Positions 3,150-63,990 of a stretch of DNA of 64,000 nt are shown here, one piece after another. Source of the stretch: Amia ocellicauda (Eukaryota > Chordata > Actinopteri > Amiiformes > Amiidae); the NCBI RefSeq assembly GCF_036373705.1, contig NC_089857.1, forward strand, positions 32,532,284 to 32,596,283, given 5' to 3'. The notes under the pieces were generated by a model. That model was given only the letters and a program-made list of their open reading frames with translations. It made no database searches and was not told the origin of the DNA. Position 1 is the first letter of the stretch, and each line of letters begins with the position of its first letter. The position numbers and the translations under genes are program-made.

Positions 3150-6100
3150 ATGGCTTCCGCTGTACTGTCCTCAGTTCCCACCACTGCCTCCCGCTTCGCT
3201 CTCCTGCAGGTGGACAGCGACTCTGACTCCGACTCCGAGTCTGGAAAGAGCAAGGCAGGCCGGGAGGCCGGCAAGTCCCGCTCTGGAAAGGCAGCAGTTG
3301 GCAAATCTGTCAACAGCAATGAGAAGAAAAAAGACAAAAAGAAGAAGAAGAAAGGACAACAGCAGAGCGAAGCCAACGAGGTAACATCATACAACTGAAA
3401 TGAACCGGGTTCATTCTTTTAAGAATCTTAACCCTAGAAGCATCACATTTTTAAACTCGATTCATGTTCCATTATGAGATTGTGGTTTGGTCGCCATATA
3501 GGATATATGTATTTCTTTTCATGATTATTAGTTAACAGTACATTATTTTCTAAAATTAGAGTGCAGGGGAAGTCTTGATATGTGATACAATGGTATGCTT
3601 AAAAGGATCACTCTTGTGTTACATCTTGCAGCTGACTGGCTATCTCCCCCTCTCCCTTTCCTTCTGGAATATAACTTCAGAGCTGAACAGGTTTATGCTG
3701 ATCAGTGGATACCATACCCATTCCTGAGTTTTAGCTGCTTGATCGTATTAGATGTTCTGACCATATGTAAACTGGGGTTTCATTGGGACATTCTCCAGGA
3801 AATTGCACAGTGTCCTGCCAATTTAAACCTATACCTCCTAAAGCGCACATTAGAAGCATGCATGTTCATGTTTAAATAGTTATATGATCAATACGAACAT
3901 TTTAAGAGAAACATTACTTTTGTTTTTTTGTCCTTTTGTCAACTTATCCTCTGAGGGTCTCACTGGCGACATAAAAAGAAAATAGTCCCATATGGTTTAT
4001 TGATGAATTATGTATTAACAAAATGTTATTCATCCTGATCTTTGCTGCCCCGTTTAATCACAAACAAACCACGCGTGGGCAATCTTACACTTGATCATTT
4101 ATTATTTTAAATACATCATTTTATTATGTTTTCATGTGGTATGTGTGGCTTTCTGGGTTTAAATGTGCTGAAAAGTGGAACTCAGTGGCAATGTGTTTAA
4201 TACATGGGGTTTTGTTCTTTGATTTTGTTTTGTTCAGTTAAGGAGTCTTGCTTTCAAGAAGCTCCCTCAGAAATCCTCCCAGCCACCGCCGGCCCTCAAT
4301 CTGCAGAACATCGCTGCTGATCTCATCCAGCACAACTCGGGAGATCATCGGGCACCCGAGGCCAATTGGCAGCAGTGGAAACAACGAGATGAACAGGTAC
4401 AGTACAGTTCTTCCTGCCGAAGACCTCCAGAGATGCTGCTCCAAACCTCCCCTTGACATCTGATAGCTCCCTGTGTCCACAATAAAAGCAGATGGCACAC
4501 AGGGTTAATGCACTGTGCAGAACCATAAGGGAGGCCTTATGTCGACAGAAACACAGCTGTTCAAATCAGTCGCCACCATTCACCTTTTCCACAAATTTGA
4601 GCGTGTCATATTTTTGCAGTGTCACTGTAGGCTGGTATGAAGAATTGAATGTGAATTACAGTTCAGTTTATTTTTAAAATAAATAATTTATGCACTTTTG
4701 TAATATATACATAGTTAACCTTTTTTTTATGTTGAACTTAGTTAACACATGATCTTTATGAAGCGGATCTGGAAAAAGCCTTAATTTTAAGCAAGTTGGA
4801 ATATGAAGAACATAAACAGGTACTTTATCTTTGTATTAAACAGATGGTTGGTTTTTTTTTTGCTTGTTTTTGTATGGTACTCATATTACTCTTAATTACA
4901 ATGAAGTGTATAAGGTGTCTTCCATTAGTGATTAGTGAAGAGTTTATGTAACTCGTATCATGTCTGTGAAAGGGGAGTTATTCTCTAAAATAATATATCT
5001 TTAATAGGCAGCAATACAAATTGAGCTTCTGTTTTTCACTGATCGTTGTAAACATGTCTTTCTTGCTCCCATAGAAATAATTCATTAAAATCAATACGCC
5101 AGCAATATTTTTCATATAATCTTCACTATCGCCTTAATAATGGTGTTGCCAAAGAGATTGCATTTGGATTGCTAATGTAAATATAATGCCATTGCCAAAC
5201 AGGACTAATGGTTTTAATGAATATACAATACTAAGAGCAACGCAACACTTTTATTCCTAGGATTTTGAAACTGTGGATACTACCTCACCTAAATCCAAAG
5301 GTGGAGGGAAGAAAGATAAAAGAAAGAACCAACAGGGTAAAGACAAACCCCTCACAGTATCCCTAAAAGACTTTCAGACGGAAGCAAATACAGGTAAGTC
5401 AGGAAACTCATTTTTAATCGTATATTCAGAACATGATATAGATATATTTGGCAAACTTTTTTTTGTTCTCTCATTCCTTTCAGATCATAGTAATAAGAAA
5501 CCAGAAGTAAGTATGAAAAACTCCATAATATGTCTGTACCCACTGCTTTTACTTTAGTAAGGGTTGGTATTAACTTCGTAATTATAAAGCTGGACATGTG
5601 CACAGCAGACCAATCAAATGTATAGTTTAAATTATGGAATTTAACTTCAAAATATCCAAGAAAATATTATGTCTGTGTATATATATACAGTGAGGGGGAA
5701 AAAAGTATTTGATCCCTTGCTGATTTTGTACGTTTGCCCACTGACAAAGAAATGATCAGTCTATAATTTTAATGGTAGGTGTATTTTAACAGTGAGAGAG
5801 AGAATAACAGCAAAAAAATCCTGAAAAACGCATTTAAAAAAAGTTATAAATTGATTTGCATGTTAATGAGGGAAATAAGTATTTGACCCCTTCGACTTAG
5901 TACTTGGTGGCAAAACCCTTGTTGGCGATCACAGAGGTCAGACATTTCTTGTAGTTGGCCACCAGGTTTGCACACATCTCAGGAGGGATTTTGTCCCACT
6001 CCTCTTTGCAGATCCCCTCCAAGTCATTAAGGTTTCGAGGCTGACGTTTGGCAACTCGAACCTTCAGCTCCCTCCACAGATTTTCTATGGGATTAAGGTC

Positions 6101-8576
6101 TGGAGACTGGCTAGGCCACTCCAGGACCTTAATGTGCTTCTTCTTGAGCCACTCCTTTGTTGCCTTGGCTGTGTGTTTTGGGTCATTGTCATGCTGGAAT
6201 ACCCATCCACGACCCATTTTCAATGCCCTGGCTGAGGAAAGGAGGTTCTCACCCAAGATTTGATGGTACATGGCCCTATCCATCGTCCCTTTGATGTGGT
6301 GCAGTTGTCCTGTCCCCTTAGCAGAAAAACACCCCCAAAGCATAATGTTTTATTATTTTAGGTAATTAGGACAAAAATTAAGTTTTGAATGAGGTGGATT
6401 ATGTCTAAGCACAGTACACTGATAACACTGTCTGAAGGGGTCAAATACTTATTTGTATATATATAATACATATATATAATTTTTTAAAAATAATTTTTTT
6501 TATTTTTTTTGTACTTACAGATATCAGTGTCAATACCCTTTTTTATGTATGATATGCCATATTATTTTCACAGGAAACAAAACCTATAAATGCAGCCACC
6601 CAAGATGACAGGTTTTTCAATAAACTGGAAGATGACGTCAGCAAAATCTTACTTAAAGAGAAGAGACGAGAGCAGTTCACTGGCAACAGTGGCATTGAAA
6701 TCCCTATACCTATAGAGCATGAAACGGTTTGATGACTATTTCAGTGACTCACTATATTTTAAGATTAGTATTTGTATCTTTAGTTTGGGCTTAAATCAGA
6801 AACTTGCTGTTATAAAAGGAAATGCTCATTAATATTGTGTAGCCAATATTTTTCTTGAATTACAAAAAAAAAAAATCCCGTAAAATAAGTTACACTAGCA
6901 ATTTAGTTAGTCAGTGAGTAGACCTAATGAAATTGGTTCAATGTTTAGCTGATGGAAAGTAGCTGTGTGGTTTGGAAGTGTTCTGAGCTTAATATAGGAG
7001 AACCAGAGACCATTGCTTTTGCATCGGTTGATAATACTCTGACAAATAATTCAGTGTTCTACACCTCTTTCTTCCCCCTTTAGCATGTAAATCATAATTT
7101 ATGCTGAAATTGAAAATGTGCTTTCATTCTTTTTTTGTTATCTTTGAAAGGTTGAAGTCAAAACTTTGACGAAAGCAATATAGATTATTGTAGTGTTTTT
7201 AAATCTTATATCTTCAGCTTCCACGATGGTCTACATGCTTGTATAAATAAGGAACACAGTAATGTAGAAAACTGTGACCTAATATTCTCAATGTGATATA
7301 ATGAGCTGGAAATAAATACTGTTTGATGTTTCTTCCTATATTGGCTCAGAACTTCAGGGGCTATAATGAATTCAAAGAGATGGGCAGTCTGAGCATTGTC
7401 AATGTTGTTATTAAAAGGAGCACAAATTAAGTAGTTGAAATGTATAATTTTACAACACTGCATTTATTTTCTTTTAGGATGTAAGAAATGAACAACTTAA
7501 ATATGAATTGGAAAAGAAAGACTTGGAAATAGAAAAGTTAAAGAAGATTATCTCACAGTGGGAGGTAATTAAACTCATAAATGTTCACTGTCTTATCATA
7601 CAGTGTTGTGATTCTGGAAGCTGTGTTGAATAAATGCAGTACTTCCAGAATTGATCCAGCTGTATTAAATATGTTTCAGAATGAGGAAGAGATTAAATGT
7701 TTGTATTTATTGAAGGTATTTCTAGTGTATTAGTCCAGTTTCTGTCAAAACTTCATTTTGTGATTTGCATTCTGGCCTACACATTTGTTTTTGTTTTCTT
7801 TTTGTGTGTATTATATTTTAAGTATTTTAACTAATTATCTTTTGCATTGGTTAGCTAGTATTTTGGTACATGTGCAGGGCTAATACTATATTTACATTGT
7901 TTCAGGGGAAATATAAAGAAGTGAAAGCAAGAAATGCACAGCTTTTGAAGATGCTTCAGCAAGGGGAAAGTAAGTACTGTGAGCAATAACACCTTCAAAG
8001 TAGAGGAATAGTTATCTGAGATTAAGAGTCTTTGGAGCGGTGTATGTTTCTCTTCTGTGGTCTTTACTTCCAAAAATAGAAAAATAAGCTCTATGAAAAG
8101 CTATGAAAATGTCGGATATCTGCAGTTTATATTGCGTTATATTTGATATTTTGCAATTGCAAGAAAAAAGTGGGTGACCCACAAATTGAAAGTGGTGCCA
8201 TGTTTATCGTCTTGTATTTATTAATTTACATTTAACTTACTTTACATTATTAATGTTAATAAACCACTCTATCTTTTAAGATTACAAGATCATGTTTTGA
8301 CAGCAGAGAGCATTATTTCTTGTTATTGATACCCATGTGCCATTATTTTTGCTTTTCAGTGAAGGATAAAGCAGAAATTCTTCTACAAGTTGAAGAGCTG
8401 ATGAATATAAAGGAGGAGCTATCATCACAGGTATGATGAACTGGCTCTGCTGTTACTGTCAGTATTAATAGGTTTTGAACCTGTCCAGATAACATGCTGA
8501 AGAGTTAAGTAAAATGTGTCAAATGCAGAATTACATTACAATAATGTTTATTGTTTGAATGGTATTGTATGTAATC

Positions 8577-11797: not shown

Positions 11798-29866
<18,069 letters not shown>

Positions 29867-36465: not shown

Positions 36466-36670
36466 GCTTAGGCCAGGGGTTTTCAACCCGGTCCCTAACC
36501 CTGCCCTGCTGGTTTTTGTTCCAACCTAGGTCTTAATTACTTAACTGAATGGTATATTGCTTTGTTAGGTCAATTAAGGATTCAATTAAGCAATTAAGAC
36601 CTCTGTTGGAACAAAAACCAGCAGGGCAGGGGGTACTCCAGGACCGGTTTGAAAACCACTGGCTTAGGCT
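36466..36670. mobile_element. Foldback (palindromic) non-autonomous element, copy 1
   Basis: Imperfect inverted repeat of about 200 bp. The left arm contains CCTGCCCTGCTGGTTTTTGT and the right arm ACAAAAACCAGCAGGGCAGG, with a centre rich in TTAATTAC/CAATTAAG. The outer arms match too (GCCAGGGGTTTTCAA and TTGAAAACCACTGGC). It encodes no protein. It is of the same kind as the element at 37553-37744. Confidence 0.85.
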
Positions 36671-37339: not shown

Positions 37340-38045
37340 TGGTGTAGTTTGTAAAATCACAGTACAGTGTAGTGTGGTGTACCGTGGTATGAACACAATA
37401 AGACACTGACTGAAACGCAGAGAAACTGACAGACATACACACTAACAATAGGGCAGTGCTAAATAATAAGCAAGTATATGGGCTGTTGATATGGCTGCAA
37501 CACTTTTGTCACTGAAGACACCTTTCTCGTCCCCTACTAAGTTGTTTTTTTTGGTTCCCTACACCACTTTAGAGGACCCCCTGTCCTGCTGATTTTTGTA
37601 CCAACCAATATCATAATTGCTTAATTGATTCCTTAATTGAACTAACAATGCAATATAAGGCTCAATTATATAATTAAGAGCTCGGTTGGAACACAAAACA
37701 ACAGGGTAGGGGGTCCTCCAGGACTGGTTTTGGTAACCCCCTGCCCTAAGACACTCCTTTTCTCCCTTGTGAAAATTTTGTGACTGGACTGATACAAGGA
37801 CTGACAGCATACACTGACTGGCTGCTTGTGAGTGTTATTATATTAGTGTGCGTGGACAAAACACAGTGCACAGCAGACTGTAGTGTGTGGTAATGTGGTA
37901 ACAACACAGTCAAGTTAAGTGTGGTGTACTGCACGCACACATTGGAGGTCTACCATGGTAACATCACAGTAAAGTGTGGTGTACCGTGGTAAAAACGCAG
38001 TAAAGTGTAGTGTGGTGTATTGTACACACACAGGAGGTCTACCAT
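37340..38045. repeat. Degenerate minisatellite rich in GTGTGGTGTAC
   Basis: Units built from GTAAAGTGTGGTGTAC and GGAGGTCTACCA recur at 37345-37400 and more densely at 37890-38045. Two larger units start at 37921 and 38012 (period about 91 bp). A foldback element lies between the two clusters. No coding potential. Confidence 0.7.
37553..37744. mobile_element. Foldback (palindromic) non-autonomous element, copy 2
   Basis: Inverted arms GAGGACCCCCTGTCCTG and CAGGGTAGGGGGTCCTC surround a centre with GCTTAATTGATTCC and ATTAAGAGC. Same plan and related arm sequence as 36466-36670. Confidence 0.8.
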
Positions 38046-38334: not shown

Positions 38335-38732
<398 letters not shown>

Positions 38733-38857: not shown

Positions 38858-40659
38858 ATTCCCACTTAATATTGAAGCGTGAGGCGTAGTACACGACTTA
38901 TTGCCATGTTTTAAATTAGCAGTTGAGCTATGGCCACATATGTGTTGATATTGTGATCATACTTAAGCAGGAGCAACTTATTGCGGATTTAAATGAGCTA
39001 TGAGTGTCTCCACACGAACACAAAAACGCAGTGACAGCCCGTGGAAAAAGTGCTGCACTTGGCTGTACATTAATATAATGGTGGGTGTAGCACAGCTGAC
39101 CCAAGTTCAGCACCAATGAAAGCTGTACGGGTTCAGTGTGCTTGTTGTAGTGATTGCATAGGACACTATCGTGAATTGTTCCACACTGTTCGTTATAATT
39201 GGTATATATGGTTATAGTTGGTTTCCCTTGATGCAATGGAGTTATCAACTGACATACATGATAATAAACTGTCTTCTTCCTCCCATTTAGATGGGTGTGG
39301 TTTGTGATCTGCTGTGGGTTACTTAGGTGGCCATAGTAGTGTGGGGATGCTGTACTGTGCCTGTAGTGTTGCAGAGCTTTTTTGACATCAAGACATGTGG
39401 TTTTTGAAGTGGAAGCTGAAAATCCATCTCGGTGAGCAGTTGTAATGTGAAATCAAAACTGATAATGCAGTGAACCCTTACAGTCTTAATGTCTGGCTCA
39501 CTGCTGTCCAGATGTATTGAGATGTGCTTTTTACAAGAAATCAAAATGTGAAAAAATCACTCCAGACCAGAGAATGTTTATATACACCTATATTTTTAGA
39601 TGCAGTTTGTGTGTGTGTGTGTGTGTGTATATAATCTAGTTATACTGTACGCCCTACTCTTACCTTCCCTTTACTTTTCTGCATGGTTTTGTTGGTAAGT
39701 CAAGATGCTATGATTCAATGGCAGACAGATGTACATTTTGAAATGTTTTAGGACCATATGTGTTGTCTATTTGTATATGTGAAGCAGCAGAACTGTTTTT
39801 AACCAGGCACTTTCAATTTTAAGTTTGTGATCAAGTTTCTACAGCCCTAGAAAATCACACATTGTGTAGGAGGCCTATCGCTTTAAGATACTGCAGTTTA
39901 ATAGCGGGTGTTGTGTTTTGAGGCTTAGTTTTTGGTAGTCCCTATTAAACACAAGTGTAGAGGAAATGTGGAAGAAAGACGGGAGCAGGGAAAGATGTCT
40001 CCTTTGTTCAGTCCCTATCCTGAACTAGCTTGATACTTCCTCTGCCATGCTTGAAAAAAGCAGTGCCAAAGTTGGTATCGCCAGTGAAATAATGTCCCCT
40101 TCGGTCACTATAGGGCACTGTCTGAGTCAATTCACACATACTGGGTTTAATCAATGCACAAAGCAATGGGAGAATGGTTTCCTGAAGGGACACATTGATA
40201 CTCCAGAAAGTCATAAGCGAGTGAGTTTTCAGCAGGTTCTTTAGGAGTATCGGAGCAAACCTGTTATTGCTTTGTCCTTTCCTGATTTACTGCTTAGCTC
40301 TGCATGACAGTATGCCAACCAGTTTAGTGATATTCCTGTTATAAGCTGTCATGCTGGTACTTTGTTTCGTACTATTTGGATATTATTGTCTAGTTAATGT
40401 AGACAACTCAGCTCAGATAAGCCATATACATTCTGCAGCAGTCGTGTTGTAGGTATATAGTTAATATTGTTATTCCACGGTGGTTTCTAATGTATAATTT
40501 ATGATCATCCATGTAGACATAATTCATACCCACCATAACAATACTTCCATTTCAAAGAGATTTTTTTTCCCTATTGATTTAAGTTAGTCCTAAGAGAAGC
40601 ACACCACTGTATTATACATAATTTGCATTATTATGTGAAAACAAAATACTAATTATTTA
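38858..40659. repeat. Duplication source segment, copy A (1802 bp)
   Basis: It matches 46963-48764 base for base as far as I can read, with a constant offset of 8105 and no indels, including a (TG)n tract (39608-39628). Its part 39871-40525 occurs a third time at 46312-46966. It starts about 190 bp into FRMD3 intron 1. Small open frames inside it recur in the copies but look random. Confidence 0.95.
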
Positions 40660-46241: not shown

Positions 46242-46308
46242 ATTATTTACTTGAGTTTTGAAATCTTGGTCATATTAGTACCTGCTCTGTAATTACTGCA
46301 GATTGGAT
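46242..46308. repeat. 67-bp direct repeat, left side of the inserted block
   Basis: Starts ATTATTTACTTGAG and ends CAGATTGGAT. It is repeated at 48757-48823. Together the two copies bracket the inserted duplicate like a very long target duplication. Confidence 0.95.
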
Positions 46309-46311
46309 AGT

Positions 46312-46966
46312 AGGCCTATCGCTTTAAGATACTGCAGTTTAATAGCGGGTGTTGTGTTTTGAGGCTTAGTTTTTGGTAGTCCCTATTAAACACAAGTGTA
46401 GAGGAAATGTGGAAGAAAGACGGGAGCAGGGAAAGATGTCTCCCTTGTTCAGTCCCTATCCTGAACTAGCTTGATACTTCCTCTGCCATGCTTGAAAAAA
46501 GCAGTGCCAAAGTTGGTATCGCCAGTGAAATAATGTCCCCTTCGGTCACTATAGGGCACTGTCTGAGTCAATTCACACATACTGGGTTTAATCAATGCAC
46601 AAAGCAATGGGAGAATGGTTTCCTGAAGGGACACATTGATACTCCAGAAAGTCATAAGCGAGTGAGTTTTCAGCAGGTTCTTTAGGAGTATCGGAGCAAA
46701 CCTGTTATTGCTTTGTCCTTTCCTGATTTACTGCTTAGCTCTGCATGACAGTATGCCAACCAGTTTAGTGATATTCCTGTTATAAGCTGTCATGCTGGTA
46801 CTTTGTTTCGTACTATTTGGATATTATTGTCTAGTTAATGTAGACAACTCAGCTCAGATAAGCCATATACATTCTGCAGCAGTCGTGTTGTAGGTATATA
46901 GTTAATATTGTTATTCCACGGTGGTTTCTAATGTATAATTTATGATCATCCATGTAGACATAATTC
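46312..46966. repeat. Duplication copy B, partial (655 bp)
   Basis: Colinear with 39871-40525 (offset 6441, no indels). One substitution was noticed: CTCCC here against CTCCT in copies A and C near 46440. It is joined at its right end directly to copy C over the shared bases ATTC, and at its left to the 67-bp repeat through three extra bases (AGT). Confidence 0.95.
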
Positions 46967-48764
46967 CCACTTAATATTGAAGCGTGAGGCGTAGTACACG
47001 ACTTATTGCCATGTTTTAAATTAGCAGTTGAGCTATGGCCACATATGTGTTGATATTGTGATCATACTTAAGCAGGAGCAACTTATTGCGGATTTAAATG
47101 AGCTATGAGTGTCTCCACACGAACACAAAAACGCAGTGACAGCCCGTGGAAAAAGTGCTGCACTTGGCTGTACATTAATATAATGGTGGGTGTAGCACAG
47201 CTGACCCAAGTTCAGCACCAATGAAAGCTGTACGGGTTCAGTGTGCTTGTTGTAGTGATTGCATAGGACACTATCGTGAATTGTTCCACACTGTTCGTTA
47301 TAATTGGTATATATGGTTATAGTTGGTTTCCCTTGATGCAATGGAGTTATCAACTGACATACATGATAATAAACTGTCTTCTTCCTCCCATTTAGATGGG
47401 TGTGGTTTGTGATCTGCTGTGGGTTACTTAGGTGGCCATAGTAGTGTGGGGATGCTGTACTGTGCCTGTAGTGTTGCAGAGCTTTTTTGACATCAAGACA
47501 TGTGGTTTTTGAAGTGGAAGCTGAAAATCCATCTCGGTGAGCAGTTGTAATGTGAAATCAAAACTGATAATGCAGTGAACCCTTACAGTCTTAATGTCTG
47601 GCTCACTGCTGTCCAGATGTATTGAGATGTGCTTTTTACAAGAAATCAAAATGTGAAAAAATCACTCCAGACCAGAGAATGTTTATATACACCTATATTT
47701 TTAGATGCAGTTTGTGTGTGTGTGTGTGTGTGTATATAATCTAGTTATACTGTACGCCCTACTCTTACCTTCCCTTTACTTTTCTGCATGGTTTTGTTGG
47801 TAAGTCAAGATGCTATGATTCAATGGCAGACAGATGTACATTTTGAAATGTTTTAGGACCATATGTGTTGTCTATTTGTATATGTGAAGCAGCAGAACTG
47901 TTTTTAACCAGGCACTTTCAATTTTAAGTTTGTGATCAAGTTTCTACAGCCCTAGAAAATCACACATTGTGTAGGAGGCCTATCGCTTTAAGATACTGCA
48001 GTTTAATAGCGGGTGTTGTGTTTTGAGGCTTAGTTTTTGGTAGTCCCTATTAAACACAAGTGTAGAGGAAATGTGGAAGAAAGACGGGAGCAGGGAAAGA
48101 TGTCTCCTTTGTTCAGTCCCTATCCTGAACTAGCTTGATACTTCCTCTGCCATGCTTGAAAAAAGCAGTGCCAAAGTTGGTATCGCCAGTGAAATAATGT
48201 CCCCTTCGGTCACTATAGGGCACTGTCTGAGTCAATTCACACATACTGGGTTTAATCAATGCACAAAGCAATGGGAGAATGGTTTCCTGAAGGGACACAT
48301 TGATACTCCAGAAAGTCATAAGCGAGTGAGTTTTCAGCAGGTTCTTTAGGAGTATCGGAGCAAACCTGTTATTGCTTTGTCCTTTCCTGATTTACTGCTT
48401 AGCTCTGCATGACAGTATGCCAACCAGTTTAGTGATATTCCTGTTATAAGCTGTCATGCTGGTACTTTGTTTCGTACTATTTGGATATTATTGTCTAGTT
48501 AATGTAGACAACTCAGCTCAGATAAGCCATATACATTCTGCAGCAGTCGTGTTGTAGGTATATAGTTAATATTGTTATTCCACGGTGGTTTCTAATGTAT
48601 AATTTATGATCATCCATGTAGACATAATTCATACCCACCATAACAATACTTCCATTTCAAAGAGATTTTTTTTCCCTATTGATTTAAGTTAGTCCTAAGA
48701 GAAGCACACCACTGTATTATACATAATTTGCATTATTATGTGAAAACAAAATACTAATTATTTA
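46963..48764. repeat. Duplication copy C, full (1802 bp)
   Basis: Colinear with 38858-40659 (offset 8105). It starts inside the shared ATTC at the B/C join. Its last eight bases (ATTATTTA) are also the first bases of the right-hand 67-bp repeat. Confidence 0.95.
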
Positions 48765-48823
48765 CTTGAGTTTTGAAATCTTGGTCATATTAGTACCTGC
48801 TCTGTAATTACTGCAGATTGGAT
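48757..48823. repeat. 67-bp direct repeat, right side of the inserted block
   Basis: Second copy of 46242-46308 (offset 2515). After it the sequence continues CTAATTTATG, presumably the original locus. Confidence 0.95.
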
Positions 48824-62100: not shown

Positions 62101-62599
62101 TTCACATTTGATTTTCCACTGTTTTACTTGAGTGGTAGTATAGAAAAATAAAGTATGAGACTTTCTAATGGGAGTTAGTCATGTGGGTAACAGTTACATT
62201 GTAGGCTGTTATTATTTAGTATTGTTGTGAGCTACTGTTCAGTGTAACTGCATGTGTCTGGCATGGTCTTTGTCTGTATTGACATTCAAAGCAGCCATTA
62301 AGTGTACTATTAGCAGTCCTGCCTGGGAGGGATTGTGCCATCACGACAGCCTTTTGTCATTCAACGCAACGCAGGTGTGTACCGTCCTAATTAGCTACAG
62401 GTGGAGTATTTAAGAGCCCCCTGGACCTCCGTGCCAGCAGTCAGCGCCAGCAGCCTTCAGTGCCCCCCTTCCGAAGGGCCATGCTTACAAAGGGCAGGGA
62501 CTCTAGCTGTGGCACTCCAGCGAGAAGACACCGCACAGCAACTATAAGAAGCCGTGACGATCGCTCCGATTCCTGTCCTGCTCTCTCCTTCCACTCAGT

Positions 62600-63990
62600 G
62601 TGCACCTCCCTAATTGCCTCCCTAATCCCTCTCCCCTCCTCCTCGCTGCTGTCATCCCACTCCTCAAGAAACCTACCCTTGACCCCACCTCTCCTCAGAA
62701 CTACCGCTGTCTCCCTACTCCCCTTCCTCTCAAAGACCCTCAACTGTGCTGTCAGCTCTCTGCCTTTCTTTCCCATCACTCACTCCTGGATCTTCTGCAA
62801 TCCGGCTTCCACACAGCTCACTCCACTGAGACTGCTCTCATGGAAGTCAATGACTCCCTCAGCTGTGCTTCAGTAGCTTCCCACTCCTCAGTCCTCATCC
62901 TTCTTGGTCTCTCCGCAGCATTTGACCCTGTCGATCACTCTATCCTCCTCTCCTGCCTCGCTGACCTTGGAATCTCTGGGACTGCTCTCACCTGGTTCTC
63001 CTCCTACCTCAACGATCAGACCTATCAATTGACATGGCGAGGTTCCTCATCCACCCCCCAACCTCTCCTCACAGGCGTTCCCCAAGGCTCCGCCCTGGGC
63101 CCCCTCCTGTTCTCTCTCTACAATTGCTCCCTGGGACCCCTCATCACATCCCATGGTTTCTCCTACCACTTCTATGCAGATGATGCCCAGATCTTCCTGT
63201 CTTTTCCCTCCACTGACCCTCTCATCCCCTCTCACATCTCTTCCTGTTTGTCTGCTGTCTCCGCCTGGATACACTCACACCACCTCAAGCTCAACCTCTC
63301 CAAATCGGATCTCCTGTTTTTCCCCCTCTTCCTCACCTTCTGCTGATCTCTCCATCTCAATCCCCTTGGAATCCACAACACTCTCTCCTTCTTCCGCTAA
63401 GAACCTAGGAGTCACCCTCGATCCTGCGCTCTCCTACACCCAACACATCATCACGCTGACACGCACCTCCAGATTCTTCCTGAGCAACATACGCCGAATC
63501 CGTCCCTTCCTCACCAACTACTCGACTCATCTGCTCGTCCAGTCACTGGTCCTCTCCCGCCTGGACTACTGCAACTCCCTCCTGGCCGGCCTACCTGCAA
63601 CTACTACCCGCCGCTCCTGCTCATCCAGAACACTGCGGCTCGTCTGGTATTCTCTCTGCCCCGATTCGCACACACTACTCCACTGCCCCGCTCCCTCCAC
63701 TGGCTCCCGATACCGGCACGCATTCAGTTCAAGTCATTGACCCTCACCTACCGCTGTCTCGACCACACTGCACCAAGTTACCTTCAGACCCTTGTCTCTC
63801 CATACATCCCCTCCAGGCCACTCCGGTCTTACAGTGCCAGAAGACTAACTCTGCCTCCTCTCCACTCTCCTTCCTACAGAACCCGCTCCTTCTCATCCCT
63901 GGCCCCTAAGTGGTAGAACGACCTTCCCACTGAAGTCAAAACAGCAGAGTCCTTGACCTCCTTCCGGCGCTTACTCAAAACACATCTTTT
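62600..63990 (+). pseudogene. Reverse transcriptase of the LINE, frameshifted
   Basis: At least three frame changes (near 62700-62750, 63310-63350 and 63617) and one nonsense codon (TAG at about 63915, where the family has a Trp codon: KWxNDLP) break the ORF2 protein. The catalytic YADD box survives. The endonuclease domain expected at the N-terminus is absent, so this is a 5'-truncated copy. It is not functional. Confidence 0.85.

Follow-up and report, generated by a model that had tools for sequence, protein, structure and literature searches.

An intron of Amia ocellicauda contains a 2.4 kb block that probably arose recently by templated insertion, in a single event of repair DNA synthesis. 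It would be a repair-mediated duplication whose chimeric filler contains one part in two copies. In the window (the whole stretch of 64,000 nucleotides analysed here), a partial and a full copy of an upstream donor segment are joined to each other, and both are enclosed by a direct duplication of the flank (Table 1). The donor is still intact, contiguous and single at its own locus in the self-comparison of the window, which indicates that the sequence was copied and not moved.

Table 1. Features of the insertion, its donor and the neighbouring exon, in positions of the window
Feature	Position	Strand	Description
Coding part of exon upstream of the intron	38562..38666	+	35 aa, ends ...EISCNIQ; GTATGG donor at 38667
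Donor segment	38858..40659	+	1802-bp 100% match to 46963-48764; 191 intronic bases from the exon
Twice-copied part of donor	39871..40525	+	matches 46312-46966 and 47976-48630
Left copy of 67-bp target-site duplication	46242..46308	+	67/67 to 48757-48823; genome search finds these two places only
Join 1, AGT	46309..46311	+	untemplated, or AG from 39868-39869 plus one substitution
First, partial copy	46312..46966	+	of 39871-40525; one mismatch
Join 2, ATTC	46963..46966	+	common to 40522-40525 and 38858-38861
Second copy	46963..48764	+	of 38858-40659; no mismatch
Join 3, ATTATTTA	48757..48764	+	common to 40652-40659 and 46242-46249
Right copy of 67-bp target-site duplication	48757..48823	+	67/67 to 46242-46308

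Self-comparison of the window recovers the second copy without any change (1802/1802, 100%), the first copy with a single one (654/655, 99.85%; C at 46444, T at donor position 40003 and T at 48108 in the second copy) and the flank in full (67/67, 100%), and the offsets from donor to copy are 6441 and 8105 bp. The twice-copied part is found once as the first copy and once within the full copy, in the same orientation, and the two donor pieces consequently overlap by 655 bp. The block proper spans 46309-48756 (2448 bp) if the eight bases shared at join 3 are assigned to the flank, while the net gain is 48757 - 46242 = 2515 bp because the 67-bp flank was duplicated too. No poly(A) end was seen at the block on inspection of the sequence. 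The original prediction had described a run over 39871-40525, a jump back to 38858 and on to 40659, and a return to the locus 67 bp upstream of where it was left; the self-comparison that it proposed yields exactly these three matches, and its three joins (AGT, ATTC and ATTATTTA) agree base by base, with the overlaps recomputed as 4 and 8 bp. It was also right that a simple tandem duplication does not give this order; we dropped that explanation, for which both the order and the place are wrong.

The copies themselves are much too long and too similar to be coincidental, and two of the three joins bear signs of microhomology. Of joins drawn at random in a simulation on the window sequence only, 46% had an overlap of 1 bp or more, 2.1% of 4 bp or more and 0.027% of 8 bp or more. 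Joins 2 and 3 therefore exceed chance, while join 1, with an overlap of 0-1 bp, does not. Tolerating one mismatch lengthens the overlaps of joins 2 and 3 to 6 and 10 bp, which random joins in the window reach in 2.5% and 0.06% of cases. Joins 2 and 3 thereby supply the two or more template changes with microhomology by which MMBIR/FoSTeS is recognised. Alternatively, copying at join 1 may have begun at 39868, which leaves a 1-bp overlap (T) and one G-to-T change (39870/46311).

As to the gene setting, neither the Pfam nor the PDB search gave a match for the 35-aa exon by itself, and for this reason the gene was placed by its next exon. A FERM_N match on the same strand lies at C8:32605806-32605922, 9.5 kb beyond the end of the window, where a TTTCAG acceptor precedes it; it is one of 28 FERM_N matches genome-wide. 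Phase and order suggest that the two exons are neighbours in one gene. If so, donor and insertion would both lie in a single intron of about 34.9 kb in a FERM-domain gene, which we take to be FRMD3. A ubiquilin exon is situated upstream, and an inverted repeat (36499-36638 and 37572-37711; 140 bp, 82%), which could form a hairpin, ends 0.85 kb upstream of the coding start. We expect no function of the block beyond intron growth of 2.5 kb, and it is otherwise an ordinary, probably neutral, intronic structural variant.

We also searched the assembly (988,188,214 bases in 385 contigs) with a tool that leaves out words of very high frequency, which makes its counts of repeats minimum values. The block gives at least 17 matches, which comprise the block itself and its donor as well as 15 short hits of 30-62 bp, all over the TG microsatellite. 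Among exact matches, a 29-base pattern across join 2 occurs once in the assembly, at the insertion. Sequences of 1109 bp upstream and 1044 bp downstream, including the 67-bp repeat, match only themselves and the other 67-bp copy, and these two queries found no second haplotype of the locus flanks in the assembly. An 85-base pattern of the empty site, with up to three mismatches, had 0 matches in the assembly, and we infer the empty ancestral site from the flanking duplication alone.

The anatomy may be explained as follows. The intron would have been opened at 46242-46308 by a staggered break, for instance by two nicks some 67 nt from each other. One end would then have annealed near 39871 with little homology and been extended to 40525, after which the new end would have slipped back to 38858, pairing via ATTC, and been extended to 40659. 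The released strand would finally have paired via ATTATTTA with the other, filled-in end, and filling of the overhang on both sides would have left the 67-bp flanking duplication. A collapsed fork making three switches (MMBIR/FoSTeS) would be an alternative route to the same product, and a polymerase returning 67 bp upstream gives the same sequence as a filled staggered break. Judged from the sequence, MMBIR/FoSTeS and break repair by strand annealing are indistinguishable, and either direction of synthesis fits; we lean towards strand annealing over a fork-borne process. The closest published class has been modelled by synthesis-dependent strand annealing (PMC2671141), and the fill-in of 3' overhangs is described as making direct duplications in mouse embryonic stem cells (PMC8355091). 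The flank duplication, which is seen here and in a second event described below, fits a staggered break with overhang fill-in. The serial template switching of the original prediction accordingly stands as a class, given the intact donor, the chimeric order, the single orientation, the microhomology at two of the three joins and the lack of a dispersed repeat. The specific MMBIR/FoSTeS pathway that it named is not singled out, since synthesis-dependent strand annealing, acting on a staggered break, would be expected to leave the same structure.

The difference in mismatches between the first and the second copy (1/655 versus 0/1802) gives a Fisher p of 0.27, or 0.07 counting the base at join 1, and the substitution confined to the first copy could reflect two templates or two events. 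It would be accounted for if the block arose in two steps, in which a tandem allele of 38858-40525, with its ATTC join, first formed at the donor and a single insertion then copied it from 39871 of one repeat through to 40659, the allele being since lost or carried by another haplotype. This sequence of events also derives the observed order from one simple insertion. However, it requires an extra event and an unseen allele, and the donor is single in the self-comparison of the window; moreover, the pattern across join 2 occurs once, at the insertion, in a search for exact matches with which the search for the block agrees. We therefore consider the two-step origin unlikely.

Separate DNA fragments captured and joined end to end, or breakage-replication/fusion, might also have built the block. 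Joins with microhomology, and short insertions chained together from around a single break, have been described for this process; the median size of its insertions in cancer is about 2 kb, so the sizes fit (PMC12807874). The donors of such insertions are, however, reported as tiled, with overlaps of at least 10 bp in less than 5%, and as randomly oriented, features that the same paper calls incompatible with template switching (PMC12807874). The donor pieces here overlap by 655 bp in one orientation, as template switching would allow, although two pieces are few for an argument from orientation. Fragment joining is thus very improbable in our view.

The near-perfect identity would also be expected if the structure was created by the assembly itself, and the assembly held neither an empty site nor a second haplotype of the flanks. 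Against such an artefact stand three joins resolved to the base, two of them with microhomology above chance, together with the second such event in the region. The precise 67-bp target duplication and the private substitution in the first copy are likewise unexpected of a misjoin. Because of this precise duplication and the microhomologies, misassembly seems very unlikely.

An extrachromosomal circle of 38858-40525, opened near 39871 and reintegrated, would turn the order A-B into B-A (PMC7450558), which resembles the start of the observed order, and a circle has been proposed for tilapia vasa (PMC3245284). Yet the model, by our own deduction and not from PMC7450558, leaves nothing beyond the circle join, whereas the second copy passes the would-be join at 40525 by 134 bp, reaching 40659, and contains 39871-40525 again. 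Neither feature follows from one turn of a 1664-bp circle and an extra switch to the chromosome would be needed, which makes this origin highly improbable.

The block is not a mobile repeat, because it matches only two loci plus microsatellites and its internal join occurs once; copies elsewhere in the genome, which would have marked it as one according to the original prediction, were not found beyond the donor, the insertion and the short microsatellite matches, and the dispersed copies expected of a transposable element were absent from the genome search of the block. Transposons are not known to make target duplications as long as 67 bp. A mobile element or retrotransposed copy can hence practically be discounted, in spite of the direct duplication around the block, as no third copy was found in the genome, the block ends without poly(A) and 67 bp exceeds the target duplications known for transposons. 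A reading of the two 655-bp copies as LTR-like terminal repeats was dropped, since the genome search found no third copy.

A regional scan of the window and the next 200 kb (264 kb together) looked for pairs in low copy number that were at least 35 bp long and at least 95% identical; insertions shorter than 35 bp or lying in repeated DNA are missed by it owing to the length and depth filters. From 4078 self-hits, in which a pair may count from both sides, 14 rows passed the filters for length, identity, depth and complexity. Four of these belong to the block, seven to Tc1-like transposons and an inverted terminal pair, two to a dispersed 89-bp repeat, and one is new. This last pair, L023:2526-2692 and L023:4374-4540, is identical over 167 bp (100%) in the same orientation at a distance of 1848 bp, and the former was copied from the latter. 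A 25-bp direct duplication (L023:2502-2526 and 2689-2713) encloses the copy, its joins show overlaps of C and CAAT, and the genome search finds its sequence at two places only. We regard this event, 160 kb from the block, as a simple form of the same kind of insertion. It lay in the 200 kb that was fetched without knowledge of it, and one event is too few for a rate.

Several other repeats were noted in the same region. A young Tc1-like family, with pairs that are 97.6-98.9% identical, occupies eight places in the 264 kb (19287-20525 and 25303-26530 in the window, and more in L014, L015, L020, L024, L026 and L028), which suggests a recent burst; a 346-codon frame at 19441-20481 has HTH and DDE_3 matches. 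Sleeping Beauty-type Tc1 copies at 20535-21984 and 5678-6350 have an HTH_SB match and are about 95-97% identical mutually and to copies farther away; the frame at 20715 is interrupted by a stop. An inverted 85-bp pair (2858-2942 and 6352-6436; 97.6%) encloses 3.4 kb, abuts a Tc1 fragment and possibly represents the ends of a composite or nested element. Moreover, a fragment of a reverse transcriptase with an RVT_1 match is found at 62558-63343 and is LINE-like by our reading of the sequence.

The absence of changes in 1802 bp puts the divergence at no more than 0.17% (95%), which corresponds to an age below about 0.14-0.83 million years if the rate is assumed to lie between 6e-9 and 1e-9 per site per year. 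The likeness of the copies could alternatively be due to gene conversion between them. The insertion may still be polymorphic, but its youth does not show this; all but one of the 10 human-specific repair duplications tested in one study appeared fixed (PMC2671141).

The kind of event is already known. For the human genome, 1,136 candidates of repair-mediated duplication are reported, of which 824 are probable with a donor within 5 kb and 20 have chimeric acceptors, and 80 repair duplications are given for zebrafish (PMC2671141, Pace et al. 2009). At their breakpoints, 2-9 nt of microhomology, 1-68 nt of filler and 4-21 nt of target duplication are described, and proximal inserts reach 619 bp with donors under 5 kb while distant inserts reach 3,424 bp (PMC2671141). 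Germline template-switch calls in two people numbered 103 and 99 after filtering, 33 and 26 of them 'complex' (PMC8421209). The claim that such mosaics are rarely caught does not hold against the 824 proximal and 20 chimeric human cases, the 80 zebrafish cases, the complex germline calls and the second event in 264 kb.

Like the repair-mediated duplications of PMC2671141, the block consists of unique nearby sequence from the same chromosome with an intact donor and with microhomology or filler at its joins, and that class is described as sometimes including flank duplication and some chimeras of two donors. As in that class, the insert is at least 50 bp long and its sequence recurs at a single further genomic locus (besides the 15 microsatellite matches of 30-62 bp), and its breakpoints have microhomology, filler and target duplication, with no poly(A). 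The block is unlike the proximal class of PMC2671141 in its length of 2.4 kb, its origin 6-8 kb away, its 67-bp flank and its overlapping donors. Both of its offsets, 6441 and 8105 bp, exceed the ad-hoc cut-off of 5 kb used in PMC2671141, within which the second event falls at 1848 bp, and we file the block as a longer-range case of repair-mediated duplication and not as a proximal member. Furthermore, both events found here have a flank duplication, which was the case in a minority (6 of 39) of the proximal breakpoints inspected in Table 1 of PMC2671141.

Other known systems are similar in part. Templated insertions of the MMBIR/FoSTeS type share the microhomology at joins, the several templates and the return to the original locus (PMC8421209, PMC5120786), but the targets of MMBSearch do not exceed a read in length and are inverted copies of a template within 100 bp, unlike this direct, kilobase-sized copy from 6-8 kb away (PMC8421209). 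Class 2 templated sequence insertion polymorphisms also combine a patch from elsewhere with microhomology, added bases and no poly(A), yet they are characterised as lacking a target-site duplication and as coming from distant regions, in which the block differs (PMC5110952). Gap-filling captures by Pack-TIRs in animals resemble it in nearby filler, template switching and microhomology; their acceptor is a TIR transposon, whereas the acceptor here is unique intron sequence (PMC8277862). In a plant, patch-mediated insertions with tandem duplication in rice (Vaughn and Bennetzen 2014, by its title as cited in PMC6097286) are natural insertions ascribed to break repair. Within this known kind, the block stands out by its length, the extent of its flank duplication and the overlap of its donors.

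The block is useful as a length outlier of repair-mediated duplication in a fish, and its re-copied 655 bp is evidence against the joining of tiled fragments and against a plain circle. Because there is almost no divergence, every join can be read to the base, which makes it possible to compare models by their template order, use of overlaps and flank duplication. Two events with essentially no divergence occur in 264 kb, one of them in 200 kb not picked for it. They tentatively raise the idea that templated insertions whose flanking duplications are unusually long arise, or are retained, at an elevated rate in this lineage, which we regard as unlikely; the comparison rate, 0.19 repair duplications per Mb of transposon DNA in zebrafish, covers all ages and was obtained by different methods (PMC2671141). 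If true, staggered breaks of 25-67 nt would be patched with nearby DNA in the germ line often enough for the process to be studied in natural populations.
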